Shown: positions 8,481 through 14,095 of the stretch, piece by piece
How positions within the stretch are numbered: the first letter of the stretch is position 1
How the letters are laid out: every line of letters begins with the position of its first letter
Assembly (NCBI GenBank): GCA_015488685.1
Contig: WFNH01000089.1
Location: 1 to 64,000, forward strand
DNA from: Marinosulfonomonas sp.
GTDB taxonomy: Bacteria > Pseudomonadota > Alphaproteobacteria > Rhodobacterales > Rhodobacteraceae
Direction of reading: 5' to 3'
Length of the DNA: 64,000 nt
The notes under the pieces: model-generated
What the model was told of the DNA's origin: nothing
Seen by the model: the letters and a program-made list of their open reading frames with translations, nothing else
Database searches by the model: none
Translations under genes and position numbers: made by a program

Positions 8481-8557
8481 GGGCCTGTAGCTCAGTTGGT
8501 TAGAGCAGAGCGCTCATAACGCTTTGGTCGCAGGTTCGAGTCCTGCCGGGCCTACCA
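8481..8557 (+). tRNA. tRNA with CAU anticodon (elongator Met, or Ile2 after lysidine modification)
   Basis: Full cloverleaf: GGGCCTG/CGGGCCT acceptor, D-arm TAGCTCAGTTGGTTAGAGC, anticodon arm GAGCG-CTCATAA-CGCTT, T-arm GCAGG-TTCGAGT-CCTGC, encoded CCA. Confidence 0.95.
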
Positions 8558-8577: not shown

Positions 8578-10062
8578 CTAGGAAACCGCCTGCAGACAGG
8601 CATCGGCATCAACCCGTTTGACCGTGGCGCCATCCGGCCCAACGGCCAAATCGGGGCAGTTGGTTTGCAAATGCAGCTTCATTTCCGCACCTGTCATCGG
8701 ATCCTGCCCTTCCTTGCGCCGCTTGGCCTGAATCAGGGATACGACACCGGCCACAATACCGCTGGCCGCCGAGGTGCCCCCGAACGAAGCAAACTGCGAA
8801 CGCTGCATGATCGAGGAGTCGTAACCCGTTTCCTCGATCGTGGAAACGCCGCCATCTTCGGCCCCGAATGCACCGGGCACATCCGTCGACAGGACACCCC
8901 ATGTGGAATAATCCCCCGCATCCTCTGGTTCGGACTCGGCCTGCGTGACAACATGGTTGTGCATCGTGCGCCCCTTTGGATCAAGGCGCAGTTCCCGACG
9001 GGTCCAGACCGGCGCATCGTCACTGGGGGCGTAAACCGTCACATTCCTTGTGTTGGTATAGGAACTCGGCTTGCGCTTGCCGTTGATTGCCCCAACCGAG
9101 ATCAGCGCATTATCGGGGCCGGCCAGTGACGCCGGATAAACCATTTCATGTCTGAACCCGTTGTTACCTGCGGCAATAATCACGGGCACGCGTGATGCTA
9201 TTTCCAGCAACAGGGCTTGGAAAACCGCAGCCTGTTGTTTCACAACCGGATCGGTATCAATCCGCGAGGCGCGTTTGTCTTTGGGGCGATGCGGGTCTAC
9301 CTTGTTGCCTTTGGCCGTCGGCATATAAATCGCGCGCGGGATACAGATGGCATCGGCCCCCATGCCAACTGCGTATAGCAGCGCATGGATCAACCCGATG
9401 AATTCGGGTCGAAAGCTGGTGTTCAGCGGCAACAGGCGGCAACGGGGATCAGCGCCGAAATATGTGATGGCCTCGGCACATTCTTCGGGCATTACGGCAG
9501 GCGCACGCGCGCCCACAACACCGGCCAGCAATGTGCCATGTGTTGGCAGATCATCCGCATATGTGGTGACCGAGCGGACAACCCCCTTGTTGTTTTCAAG
9601 GGCATCGATGATGTCGTTTACCCCCGGGATGTCGGTGTCCTGATCAAAATCGTTGATACGCTGCCAGAACTGCGGGTCTGCCGCATTGGCTGCATCAAAA
9701 TGGTTCAGGCGGCCTTCGCGGTCCGTGGTGCATTGCGTCAGGTCGCCATCAGCACCCAAAGGCCGAATGATCGCCCCGAAATCATGGGTGGCAAAATCGA
9801 TCCCCTCGATCATGCCGCCAGCATCCCCCGCCGCAGGCAAATACGGGTGTTGCGATGAGCAGCCGTTGTCAATCATCGCCACTAGTGACGGCTCCACTGC
9901 ATCGTCATACAGATCATCCCAAACACTGCCGGTAACCTCGTAATGTGGCAGGTCCTCGTCTTCGGCCAGTTCAAGGGTGATGACGCCCGCATCATGCAGA
10001 TGCCACAGGTAATGGGCGTATTCGCTATCGCGGTTCAGATCATTATCCGGCATTATATCCAC
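8578..10062 (-). CDS. S8 (subtilisin-like) serine protease, no obvious signal peptide
   Basis: Catalytic blocks Asp (VAMIDNGCSS), His (LPTHGTLLAGVVGA), Asn (IIAAGNNG), Ser (FGGTSAASGIVAGV). Confidence 0.88.
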   Translation of the reverse strand: MDIMPDNDLNRDSEYAHYLWHLHDAGVITLELAEDEDLPHYEVTGSVWDDLYDDAVEPSLVAMIDNGCSSQHPYLPAAGDAGGMIEGIDFATHDFGAIIRPLGADGDLTQCTTDREGRLNHFDAANAADPQFWQRINDFDQDTDIPGVNDIIDALENNKGVVRSVTTYADDLPTHGTLLAGVVGARAPAVMPEECAEAITYFGADPRCRLLPLNTSFRPEFIGLIHALLYAVGMGADAICIPRAIYMPTAKGNKVDPHRPKDKRASRIDTDPVVKQQAAVFQALLLEIASRVPVIIAAGNNGFRHEMVYPASLAGPDNALISVGAINGKRKPSSYTNTRNVTVYAPSDDAPVWTRRELRLDPKGRTMHNHVVTQAESEPEDAGDYSTWGVLSTDVPGAFGAEDGGVSTIEETGYDSSIMQRSQFASFGGTSAASGIVAGVVSLIQAKRRKEGQDPMTGAEMKLHLQTNCPDLAVGPDGATVKRVDADACLQAVS

Positions 10063-10985
10063 TCCTGCATCGCGGCGAACACCTGTTCACGGCATAATTC
10101 AATCATGTAGGGGCAGAACCATTTGGCCAGCAAACGGCCCGCATCAGTGTCCGACGGATAATGGATGCCCGCATATTCGCGGTTTTCCCCCACCCGTTGC
10201 GCGACAAAGAACAATTCCGGCATCGCCCCGACTTCGGGCACCATGCGCGACAGAACCTCGGCAACAGAATACATCTGGAATGTATGGTTTGACGGATAGG
10301 CGTTATGCGGCGGGTTGCCGACAAAGGGGCGCAATGTGGGATCAATCTGGTTTGGCCGGGTGCGGCTGAATTTGTCCTTGTAGTGAAACCCGACAACGCC
10401 TGCGACGTCGATCACTGTCCGGATCAAGGTTTCCGTGGCACCATACCCGCCCAGTTCTTCAATCCCCATTGGCCGTAAAATATCGCTGATATCTTCGGTT
10501 GTTGCCTGATCCATTATTTCGGACTGGCGCAAAGGGTCTTTCATCAGACGTTTTTGGTATTTATGTAAATGCTTGATCTCTTTGGTAAATGTTTCATCCT
10601 GATCCGGCGGTGCGGGCAATGGCAGGTTTTCCCAAGCAAACCGTTTTGCTTTCAGCTCTTCTGGCAATTGTGCCCAGAACAGCTCGCGAAATTCGTACCA
10701 GTTCTGTAACGGTGCGCCGCCCCCTGCTGCCGCCACATTGCTGCGTGATCGCGACCGGCTGCGTGATCTTGAGCGGCTACGGCTGCGTGATCTGGACCGG
10801 CTAAGTGCACCGGAACCGGTTGCCGCCGCCCCTGCCCCTTCGCCCGATCCGGTTCCAAACGCGCTGATCAGCTGTGACTCGCCCCCCGGGTTCGCATGGA
10901 CCAGTTTGCTGTTTCTGTAGACCAGCAAATTGCCACTGATCGACTCGGAAAATTTTGGATACACAATAGTATCTGGCATAATCAT
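10053..10985 (-). CDS. PAP2 / vanadium haloperoxidase-fold protein with an N-terminal (SR)10 repeat
   Basis: KDKFSRTRP (KX6RP), PSNHT (PSGH-like), REYAGIHYPSD (RX5HX3D); SRSRSR tract near residues 60-83; 10-bp overlap with the protease gene. Confidence 0.82.
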   Translation of the reverse strand: MIMPDTIVYPKFSESISGNLLVYRNSKLVHANPGGESQLISAFGTGSGEGAGAAATGSGALSRSRSRSRSRSRSRSRSRSRSNVAAAGGGAPLQNWYEFRELFWAQLPEELKAKRFAWENLPLPAPPDQDETFTKEIKHLHKYQKRLMKDPLRQSEIMDQATTEDISDILRPMGIEELGGYGATETLIRTVIDVAGVVGFHYKDKFSRTRPNQIDPTLRPFVGNPPHNAYPSNHTFQMYSVAEVLSRMVPEVGAMPELFFVAQRVGENREYAGIHYPSDTDAGRLLAKWFCPYMIELCREQVFAAMQEWI

Positions 10986-11004
10986 ATTCCTTAAATAATA
11001 GCGT

Positions 11005-12855
11005 TTACAAATCGCACAGCAGCAGGCTGTTGCCGATCACATTGGCCGCCTGCGCCGACGGGACAGGATATTCCTGCGTGCCGATGATTGCCGAGGACAG
11101 GTGCGGTTCGACCCGCGCAAGTTGCCCAAAGGTTTCGCGCGCGCGCGCAATCTGCCCCATTTGCGCGTAACAGGCCCCAAGATAACGCAGGGTGGGCGGA
11201 TAGTATTTGCCGGTATTTTTCGGCTGCAATGACAGGGCCAGATTGCCATTGCGGATACCCGAGCGGTAATCCCCGTTCAGGGTGTCGATCATGCACAGGG
11301 TGGTGACAAACGCATAGCGATGCGGCAAGAAACGCCCCAGCATGGCGGCCTTCATCGCCGATTTTCGCGCCGCCGCCAGATCGCCCTTGTATAATAACAA
11401 AAGCGCCTGTGCATCGTGGGTCATGACATGATCGGACTGGACCATATGCGCCCGGTCAATCAGCTCGGTTGCTTGTTCGAAATCACGAAAAACAAAGGCT
11501 GACACAAAGGACAATAGCGAAAGCGTCAGACCGTTATACGGGTCCAGCGCCAATGCCCGTTCGGCATATTCATGTGTGCGCGCCAGAATATCTGCGCGCT
11601 CGCAACTGTCCTGTTCTTCCATCCAGTGGGCGCCCAGATAGGCCCGCCACGCCAGAATGCTGGAGCTTTCATTCAAATCACACGCCAGAGCAAAGCTTTT
11701 GTCAGACAAATCCAGATTCCGCGCAGTCAGGGAAAACATGCTGTTTATTCCCTGAACCGCCAAAGCCGCAGCCAGATATGGCTCGGTCGAGAATTGCCCG
11801 GGCTGGGCGGCCAGTTTGGTGAATATCTGGTCGGATAATTCGTTCGCCAGACTCCAGTCGGTAATATTGCCCTGCTCGGTGACAGGAATGTGCCGGACCT
11901 GTGACCAGATGATTGATTTGTCCGAGGACCGCAGCAGGTTGAGAGATATTTCCACCCGCAAATCATTACTTTGGGCAAACAGCTGCAAATACACATCCGG
12001 TATAACGCAGGGCGCGATATTCTGATCGGGGCCACGTAAATCGACCACTTCGAAACCGCCAAATTCCATAAAAAAATGCGTGATTTTTCCAAGCAGGATA
12101 TTTCCAGTCGTCGAGGCGCGCATGTCTTCGGGGGCCGTCATGACATTTTGCAAACCGATCTTGATCGTGTGACACGGGGCAATGGCGCCGGATAATCTGT
12201 GCAGCAGCGGATTACGGTGCCCCGGCTGCATGGTCGCGGAACGGGCCGTGCGCAACCAGTCCTCGAAACCGTCCTCGCCAACAATATCGATCCCTTCCAG
12301 CAATTCGCCGTCTGCGTCCCCTTCCAAGGCATCGATATGGATCCGGTCCTTTAACAACCGCACACAATCACGCCTGATCTCGATCGGACTGGATTCCTGC
12401 GGCCCGAATATTTTACGCAAAGTTGAAAGTTCATGCCGCAGGCTTGCCTGGGCCTGACATTTTTCACGGCTGCCCCACAACCGGTCCATCAACCAGCCAC
12501 GTTGCCGCTCCAAATTGGGGGAAAGCGCCAATATCGCCAAAATTGCCCGCGCTTTTTTGCTGACGACCTCCAGTCGTTCATCATCTGGCGAGACCACCCG
12601 AAAGCTGCCGCATATATTCAGTTTATAAGTGGAGTCGACAGTTGTTTCATCCATGTCTGATATGGGTTTTTCATTTTTGTTCGGCGTTTTGGTATTGGGG
12701 TAATTTGTTAACTTATTGTTAACACATTGGCCCAAACCTGTAAACTTTCCCGGGTTTTGCGCCCCATTGGGAACGTCCCCTGCTGCATCGGAAACATGCG
12801 AAAGGGCCTTTGATGTACATGTATCAACTGTCTTGCCCAGACCGATGCGTTTCAT
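11005..12855 (-). CDS. SARP-like/OmpR-type winged-helix regulator with BTAD-like and C-terminal TPR-like regions (start may be 12654, MDETTVDSTYKLN)
   Basis: LNICGSFRVVSPDDERLEVVSKKARAILAILALSPN...RLWGSREKCQAQASLRHELSTLRKIFG; repeated Ala-rich helices in the C-terminal half. Confidence 0.75.
   Translation of the reverse strand: MKRIGLGKTVDTCTSKALSHVSDAAGDVPNGAQNPGKFTGLGQCVNNKLTNYPNTKTPNKNEKPISDMDETTVDSTYKLNICGSFRVVSPDDERLEVVSKKARAILAILALSPNLERQRGWLMDRLWGSREKCQAQASLRHELSTLRKIFGPQESSPIEIRRDCVRLLKDRIHIDALEGDADGELLEGIDIVGEDGFEDWLRTARSATMQPGHRNPLLHRLSGAIAPCHTIKIGLQNVMTAPEDMRASTTGNILLGKITHFFMEFGGFEVVDLRGPDQNIAPCVIPDVYLQLFAQSNDLRVEISLNLLRSSDKSIIWSQVRHIPVTEQGNITDWSLANELSDQIFTKLAAQPGQFSTEPYLAAALAVQGINSMFSLTARNLDLSDKSFALACDLNESSSILAWRAYLGAHWMEEQDSCERADILARTHEYAERALALDPYNGLTLSLLSFVSAFVFRDFEQATELIDRAHMVQSDHVMTHDAQALLLLYKGDLAAARKSAMKAAMLGRFLPHRYAFVTTLCMIDTLNGDYRSGIRNGNLALSLQPKNTGKYYPPTLRYLGACYAQMGQIARARETFGQLARVEPHLSSAIIGTQEYPVPSAQAANVIGNSLLLCDL
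12708..12723. promoter_or_regulatory. CtrA-type box TTAA-N7-TTAAC (also an 11-bp-spaced TTGTTAAC direct repeat)
   Basis: TTAACTTATTGTTAAC upstream of the alternative regulator start at 12654. Confidence 0.45.
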
Positions 12856-13099
12856 TTTTTTTGCGCCTCCAAAAACAAGCGATAATGATAATCTAAAAAT
12901 AATTGCCGTAGCGTAATCCTGAAATGAAATGACAGCTTTTGGAAAAAGTTAACGGCGTTTTTTGAGATCACGTCATTATTCACGGTTTATTCACGATAAA
13001 TAGGCGGGCAGTTGGCGCTGACCGGTGAAACTGTCGGTATCTTGGAACCGAAAACAACCACTCTCATCATTTAATCCATAGATAGCAAAGTGATAATAA

Positions 13100-14095
13100 A
13101 TGATCATGCTCTCCCTATTATGTAGTGCAAATAAATTGAAAACAGCGTCTTTATTTCGAAATATCAAACATTTAAGCGTCTCGGAAGCCGACACAAGGCA
13201 ACTGGAAAAGCAAACTGTCCGCAATCTGCTTGCCGCCGTTCCCGCACAAAAGGTCAGAGCCGATTACGAGTTGGTTCTGGGGCAATTGTTCTTTCTGAAT
13301 TTCACAACAACGATCCACACAAGCCCCCCGAAGGATGGTGATCATATCTTTGCACCCGACTGGATTGCCCGGATTGATGACGATATCCAAAAGGCGAACG
13401 GGCATGAAACAAGCAAGGTCGAACAAGCCTTTCAGAAATTATTTGATACACTGGTTGTGATGTTTCAATCCGCAGGTCAAACCCGCCAATCCGCCATCGA
13501 CCGCGCCACAACCGAAGCCCATTACCATTACCAATGGATGCTGATGAATTTGGTCTTGCCTGCTATGATCGACGAAAATCTGCAAACCGAAATTCTGAAC
13601 TCCAAAGCACCGCTATATTCCGAATTCAGACGGCAAAACGCGTTTGAAAACAGCCGCGAGCATACCTATCCCAAGGAATTCATTTTCCTGACGGTCCCGC
13701 TTGCGTTGTATTTGTGCCGTGGCGCACAGAAAAATCAACCGTCGCCGATGTCCCTGATTTACGACTTGAACATGCACAGTTTTCCATCTGCACAGGACGC
13801 AATACAAGATATATTCAAACGCACAGGCATCGTGTTGAACCAGCCACAGTTACACATGAATACTGCAAAGATGCCGATCTGGGTGTTTCTTGTTAACGAA
13901 ATGGAACAACAGGACGGGCGTTGTTTGATTGGGTCGCTGGGCAGTTATATTCTGTGTGACACCATCATCGGCATGTTGATTTCCGACCCTGACACCTATT
14001 GGCATCAAGCCGGAAGCGATGCAGGGCGCTGGTCACCAGATGACGGAAGCCTGAAACGGCCGGTAGATACGCTCGAAAAACTGCTGGCATTATAA
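13100..14095 (+). CDS. Divergent animal-heme-peroxidase-like protein, probably lacking the heme-ligand motif
   Basis: HYQWMLMNLVLPAMIDENLQTEIL, YPKEFIFLTVPLALYLCR...YDLN, GSLGSYILCDTIIGMLISDPDTYW resemble blocks of bacterial heme-peroxidase-superfamily proteins. Confidence 0.5.
   Translation: MIMLSLLCSANKLKTASLFRNIKHLSVSEADTRQLEKQTVRNLLAAVPAQKVRADYELVLGQLFFLNFTTTIHTSPPKDGDHIFAPDWIARIDDDIQKANGHETSKVEQAFQKLFDTLVVMFQSAGQTRQSAIDRATTEAHYHYQWMLMNLVLPAMIDENLQTEILNSKAPLYSEFRRQNAFENSREHTYPKEFIFLTVPLALYLCRGAQKNQPSPMSLIYDLNMHSFPSAQDAIQDIFKRTGIVLNQPQLHMNTAKMPIWVFLVNEMEQQDGRCLIGSLGSYILCDTIIGMLISDPDTYWHQAGSDAGRWSPDDGSLKRPVDTLEKLLAL

Follow-up and report, generated by a model that had tools for sequence, protein, structure and literature searches.

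Four adjacent genes in the 64,000-nucleotide stretch of Marinosulfonomonas sp. DNA analysed here (the window) raise the question of whether they form a system of their own and, if so, what its parts would do. A first-pass annotation of the sequence had read them as a regulated, cytoplasmic cassette made up of an S8 protease, a haloperoxidase-fold PAP2 protein with an SR repeat, a SARP-like regulator and a peroxidase-like protein. The regulated and cytoplasmic-looking character of the cassette is supported. The SR repeat, which is indeed present, had been mentioned there as a mere detail and is in fact the main finding, as it is the hallmark of the whole family.

Organisation of the locus

The four open reading frames lie exactly at the coordinates first given. 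The operon is on the reverse strand and its first gene (11005-12855) encodes a winged-helix (OmpR/SARP-like) regulator with TPRs. It is followed by the PAP2 gene (10053-10985), assigned from the reading frame, Pfam, motifs and matches of fold and profile, and by the S8 protease gene (8578-10062), assigned from the reading frame, Pfam, an alignment of relatives and a structure model. On the forward strand, the peroxidase-like gene (13100-14095) encodes a 331-aa degenerate homologue of An_peroxidase and is separated from the regulator gene by a divergent intergenic region (12856-13099) that measures 244 bp, close to the 245 bp estimated earlier. The 10-bp overlap reported between the protease and PAP2 genes holds for a GTG start at 10062, but the protease more likely starts at the ATG at 10053, which gives a TAATG junction (10051-10055, reverse strand) where the PAP2 stop codon overlaps the probable protease start. 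From its sequence, this junction probably couples the translation of the two genes.

A tRNA-Met(CAT) gene (8481-8557, forward strand) abuts the 3' end of the protease gene and marks the edge of the inserted cassette. The flanking genes, named by reading their translations, are purM, purN and rnd on one side and alaS and recA on the other, and in a congener (G003) all four genes are present with these neighbours as well. Between the window and this congener dN/dS is 0.115 for the protease, 0.060 for the PAP2 protein, 0.057 for the regulator and 0.105 for the peroxidase-like protein, and 0.025-0.037 for the comparison genes recA, alaS and rnd. All four genes are under purifying selection and the cassette is more than a chance arrangement.

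Conservation and distribution of the operon

Searches were seeded with the PAP2 protein alone, and neighbouring genes were not taken into account when the loci obtained were annotated. Co-occurrence was counted over 127 distinct PAP2 loci, each with 3.5 kb or more of flank on both sides. Where the PAP2 protein has a clear repeat, the regulator was present within 2.5 kb in 118/118 loci and the protease in 115/118, counts that are not independent events, the loci being related by descent. Three loci fall outside the 115. In L051 the S8 domain is part of the PAP2 protein and a trypsin-like gene comes next; L170 has an S8-like reading frame too weak for the profile; and in L181 a search for a protease found none. 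Of the nine loci without a clear repeat, six have the protease and five of these also the regulator; on inspection, the repeat of these six was short or interrupted or lay outside the part that was searched, or the gene was damaged. The other three (L171, L172 and L215) are ordinary PAP2 genes that lack both the repeat and the partners, and they were used as controls.

The gene order regulator-PAP2-protease recurs in nearly all close relatives. The operon occurs in Rhodobacterales, Rhizobiales, Devosia and Pelagibius, and also on plasmids of Rhizobium and Aliiroseovarius. It was verified in at least 56 of the 298 sampled genomes of Rhodobacteraceae, in addition to Rhizobium and other groups, within genome sets that are biased to Alphaproteobacteria and hold two genomes from elsewhere in the phylum (L165 and L168). 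The possibility, raised with the first-pass annotation, that the genes are not found together outside this genome does not hold for the regulator, the PAP2 protein and the protease, which co-occur far beyond it. No phage-borne copy was found in one scan of viral contigs. Duplicated and decaying copies were also seen: L178 (genome G191) has two PAP2 copies about 5 kb apart with the units (GS)n and (SAY)n, the decayed PAP2 gene of Citreimonas salinaria (L043/L080) has an internal stop and lies near a contig start, and that of Parasedimentitalea marina (L254) is broken and annotated as hypothetical while its NSF array survives.

The PAP2 enzyme

The window protein matches the Pfam family PAP2 (E 2e-6). 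All three motifs reported for it are present (K203-R210-P211, PSNH at 231-234 and R269-H275-D279), and the patterns KX6RP, PSxH and RX5HX3D are invariant in 16 to 50 relatives. AlphaFold gave a confident domain of about 215 residues, from about residue 93 to about 310, with block pLDDT values mostly of 86-98, preceded by a disordered tail (about residues 1-92). The domain superposes on the class A acid phosphatase 7f17 (Foldseek TM to target 0.73, E 9e-9), and the profile match to class A acid phosphatases covers the whole domain (E 3e-22). The haloperoxidase fold first proposed has to be replaced by this one. An identity as vanadium haloperoxidase was rejected, as TM to target reaches only about 0.1-0.34 and the domain of about 215 residues compares with a two-bundle fold of 400-600. 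The models place the protein among soluble, all-helical, PhoN-type class A acid phosphatase folds.

The fold and the catalytic motifs are common to this domain and to the class A acid phosphatases (PhoN/PhoC; PDB 7f17 and 1d2t). Those enzymes are secreted to the periplasm, whereas neither the window PAP2 protein nor its close relatives have an N-terminal signal sequence, judged by eye, in agreement with the first-pass annotation. Moreover, the present subgroup has PSNH instead of PSGH, and it differs in having a repeat tail and regulator and protease partners.

The repeat tail is selected as protein

In the window the tail contains the tandem peptide repeat (SR)10-S at residues 62-82 (10740-10802, reverse strand). 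Every intact family member found beside the regulator has such a repeat N-terminal to the PAP2 domain, with a period of 2-5, most often perfect, 10-57 residues long and built from one of about 60 different units. Repeats of at least 12 aa occur in 133 of 143 PAP2 proteins, against 2 of 1296 other reading frames of the same loci and 0 of 302 partner genes. Beside the window type of protease (S8 group A) the units are SR in the window and NR, NK, SK, AK, AR, AQ, AN, GR, TK, NRG and NRD in relatives. The other classes of protease beside PAP2 are a distinct S8 group B, accompanied by 36 different units (NSF, ENW, TGW, GNQ, GHE, NAE, LQS, GGA, GAGS and QG, for example), a papain-like C1 protease (GGMN, GGLN, GGTH, GATH, GSHS and GGGN) and an A4 glutamic peptidase (NAG and NTG). 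Some units are basic, some acidic and some made of Gly/Ala alone; cysteine never occurs in them, proline occurs once, and some units (NR and NK) are common to many genera. The period is mostly 2 with S8 group A, always 4 with C1 and mostly 3 with S8 group B, a correlation that follows the PAP2 tree, is not independent and is also explained by shared descent.

The DNA behind these peptides is far less regular. None of 139 repeat genes has a single DNA unit throughout its array, which rules out DNA slippage and phase variation, and the ten SR units of the window are written with seven distinct DNA units. Neighbouring units had codons in common in 1040 of 3011 comparisons, against 1243 +/- 23.5 expected when the same codons were shuffled within each array (z = -8.7), so that codons recur from unit to unit less often than chance would give, as though repetition of the DNA were being avoided in the arrays. 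A true microsatellite looks different: the pure hexanucleotide (TCTCGG)n was seen in both species, at G000:C26:14628-14740 in the genome of the window and at G003:C1:2107086-2107270 in the congener, unlike the codon-varied SR array.

In the arrays of 14 close pairs, matched on the same unit type and thus measuring constancy once the unit is set, 121 codon changes were found, all of them synonymous; the sites compared were about 254 synonymous and 772 non-synonymous ones. Whole units can be gained or lost between close pairs. Three species of Phaeobacter keep the unit NSF, and in one genus with the gene in 7/7 species the arrays are AGV, SGV or TGV, with every unit switched together; a single AGV unit was found inside a TGV array of this genus. 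Selection acts on the tail at the protein level: all units of a gene are the same, other lineages have other units, and a change of unit affects the array as a whole. Gene conversion does not explain this identity because it would homogenise the DNA as well. No common repeat model, whether slippage, gene conversion or disordered linkers, fits the combination of perfect periodicity, a unit free to change between lineages and non-repetitive DNA, and the arrays imply a strong selected demand for sameness between units. We put at about 0.97 the probability that a TPR regulator, a repeat-tailed PAP2 protein of class A fold and a co-encoded protease form a conserved system whose tail is selected as protein.

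The partner protease and the regulator

The window protease matches Peptidase_S8 (Pfam, E 2e-16) and its catalytic triad, D65/H175/S431, is complete as first described and invariant across 16 relatives. It is of the intracellular type, with an invariant N-terminal LWHL motif. Its AlphaFold model has the subtilisin fold, and the structures matched include intracellular subtilisin and the leader peptidases EpiP, NisP and PagA. Across loci the protease is swapped for unrelated folds while the PAP2 gene stays, so proteolysis itself seems to be required. L051 (7985-10765) encodes PAP2 and S8 as a single chain of 926 aa; this fusion has a His-Thr repeat, and its Tat-like N-terminus suggests that it is exported in that lineage.

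The regulator had been called SARP-like. The TPRs stand (Pfam, above cut-off), but the protein is more aptly called a winged-helix and TPR regulator. It has weak matches to Trans_reg_C (E 0.008) and to AfsR (E 5e-7, over 88 residues), and a profile search of the window protein gave no match to the bacterial transcriptional activator domain (BTAD) that goes with an OmpR-type winged helix in SARP (AfsR/DnrI) regulators. Among 151 regulator matches, duplicates included, 130 have a winged-helix head and 17 a class III nucleotide cyclase head, and four were unclassified. The TPR part is retained although the head differs.

Possible roles of the tail

The tail can be understood as a tag that is read by the partner protease, which would thereby control the PAP2 enzyme or free peptides; we regard this mechanism as plausible, at somewhat less than even odds. 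The TPR module would sense a signal and the operon would be switched on, by way of the winged helix in the window protein and of a nucleotide cyclase in some of its relatives. The protease would then engage or cut the repeat units, turning the PAP2 enzyme on or off or releasing units as short peptides. This reading is favoured because the third partner is consistently a protease, of whichever fold, because the PAP2 and protease genes overlap here and were fused once (L051), and because the tail is the evident accessible substrate; it is the only long low-confidence stretch in the two modelled proteins, short termini and loops aside. The correspondence of repeat period and protease class also counts in favour, subject to the reservation of shared descent. 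In addition, a change of protease specificity would force all units to change together, leaving one unit per lineage. Against it, one protease family would have to change its specificity repeatedly to accept basic, acidic and Gly/Ala units, and NR and NK recur in many genera.

A comparable arrangement is known from bacterial gasdermin operons and the fungal het-Q1/het-Q2 systems, in which a small effector lies beside a protease and proteolysis controls the effector (PMC10989679). As here, the protease class varies (theirs is S8 or caspase-like), and the strain specificity of the het-Q systems can be counted as a further likeness to the tail system. The effector here is nevertheless a PAP2 protein of acid phosphatase fold, neither a pore former nor of gasdermin fold, and the repeat tail has no counterpart there. 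By analogy the biological role may be defence or self-recognition.

The main rival, which is unlikely, makes the tail a self-assembly element: identical units of neighbouring molecules would stack or condense, clustering the PAP2 enzyme, and the protease would dissolve or regulate the assembly. Unit identity would then need no external partner, and a search of G609 and G681 for a second protein with the same repeat found the AGV array only in the PAP2 gene. Many units (GAGS, GGA, NSY, GGF and QG) also resemble low-complexity or silk-like sequences, but the commonest (NR, NK and SR) set like charges in a row, which disfavours in-register stacking, and AlphaFold gives the window repeat no structure.

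In RRNPP quorum-sensing systems, too, a regulator with HTH and TPR parts is encoded next to a protease and to something that may supply a peptide. A similar scheme, to which we give a rather low probability, would have the tail as a multi-copy precursor of lineage-specific di- to tetrapeptides, released by the protease and read by the TPR regulator of the same operon as a signal of self-identity, density or infection, with PAP2 as the output. The peptide would in that case be a 'password' peculiar to each lineage, such as NSF for Phaeobacter and AGV, SGV or TGV within one genus. In contrast with RRNPP systems, the regulator here has an OmpR/SARP-type winged helix or a cyclase, and the peptide would sit inside an enzyme.

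It is improbable that the tail acts as a low-complexity barrier at which AAA+ unfoldases such as ClpXP are stopped or held back in degradation, so that PAP2 is protected or partially processed. Many units are rich in Gly, Ala, Ser or Asn, but aromatic units (NSF, TGW, ENW and GGNWF) would be gripped well and perfect unit identity is not required for such a role. The reading is further weakened by the report that the positions immediately next to the folded domain are decisive and that, of the low-complexity sequences, Gly12 alone was inhibitory (PMC6677533). The window repeat ends about 10 residues before the domain.

Optional partner genes

In Rhizobium relatives the cassette also includes a ThiF-like E1 protein and a homologue of the aKG-HExxH peptide beta-hydroxylases (TIGR04267, E 5e-20), which could point to the tail as a peptide-modification (RiPP-like) core carried on an enzyme. 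This is very doubtful, as the two enzymes are confined to a single subgroup with (NK)n tails, at 8 of about 100 loci, and no leader-like conserved element was seen. They occur at L033-L035, L124, L129, L133-L135 and L176, in Rhizobium and related versions, directly after the protease gene or, in L133, a few kb after it. Neither an HExxH nor a ThiF homologue adjoins the window cassette, so the pairing of precursor peptide and modifying enzyme expected of a RiPP cluster is missing there, and the likeness to aKG-HExxH peptide hydroxylase clusters is absent from most relatives too. Peptide modification, one of the roles first suggested, is consequently dropped as a general one.

An animal-type peroxidase, or a dead peroxidase, is an optional fourth gene. 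An_peroxidase was found within 5 kb in 11 of 118 loci and is absent from about 90%. Counted by genome, it lies within about 4 kb of the PAP2 match in 8 of 298 (G004, G006, G063, G141, G172, G238, G258 and G274), against a rough chance expectation of about 0.1. The 331-aa window protein has no Pfam match and, like the other short versions (L036, L169, L180 and L189), lacks the distal His, the catalytic Arg and the proximal His that full-length An_peroxidase partners retain; five of the 11 distinct copies found are dead. Having lost these landmarks the window protein cannot work as a normal peroxidase, and an active enzyme is not supported; it persists under selection, perhaps in a binding role. 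An oxidative or halogenating cassette, with PAP2 as a vanadium haloperoxidase partnered with a haem peroxidase, would draw on the shared PAP2 superfamily motifs and on a proximity far above chance, but there is very little probability in it when the best structure and profile matches are class A acid phosphatases and the peroxidase is so often missing or dead. Least credible of all is the cationic repeat as an anchor to nucleic acid, polyphosphate or membrane, which fits the units SR, NR and NK alone and is contradicted as a general role by the neutral or acidic and equally conserved units found in nearly all cases beside S8 group B and in all cases beside C1.

Novelty and further observations

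None of the four window proteins matched a named defence system in PADLOC, and no published description of this system was found in the open-access literature, an absence that is weak evidence; the first-pass annotation had likewise given no named system as a match. The repeat-tailed PAP2 protein with its regulator and protease looks like an undescribed system in which the tail is a lineage-specific tag. Identifying what reads the tail could bring to light a type of protein-level recognition, or of protease-controlled switching, that is new.

Several other genes were seen near the cassette in relatives. At L037 (14008-17799) a 1263-aa protein with trypsin-like, DNA/RNA endonuclease (NS) and S8 domains adjoins the peroxidase beside the cassette, and a PGAP1-like/trypsin protein has the same position in L038 (13846-16461). 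In G149, G101, G105, G223, G293 and G295, animal-type peroxidase domains are duplicated within reading frames that run to about 2300-3400 residues. Type I secretion genes are annotated near the cassette in L032, and the same ABC transporter cluster is present in L037 and L043. In the Phaeobacter and Parasedimentitalea cassettes (L249-L254), three to four conserved hypothetical genes lie downstream of the protease on the opposite strand, one of which is annotated 'mAFB alternative'.
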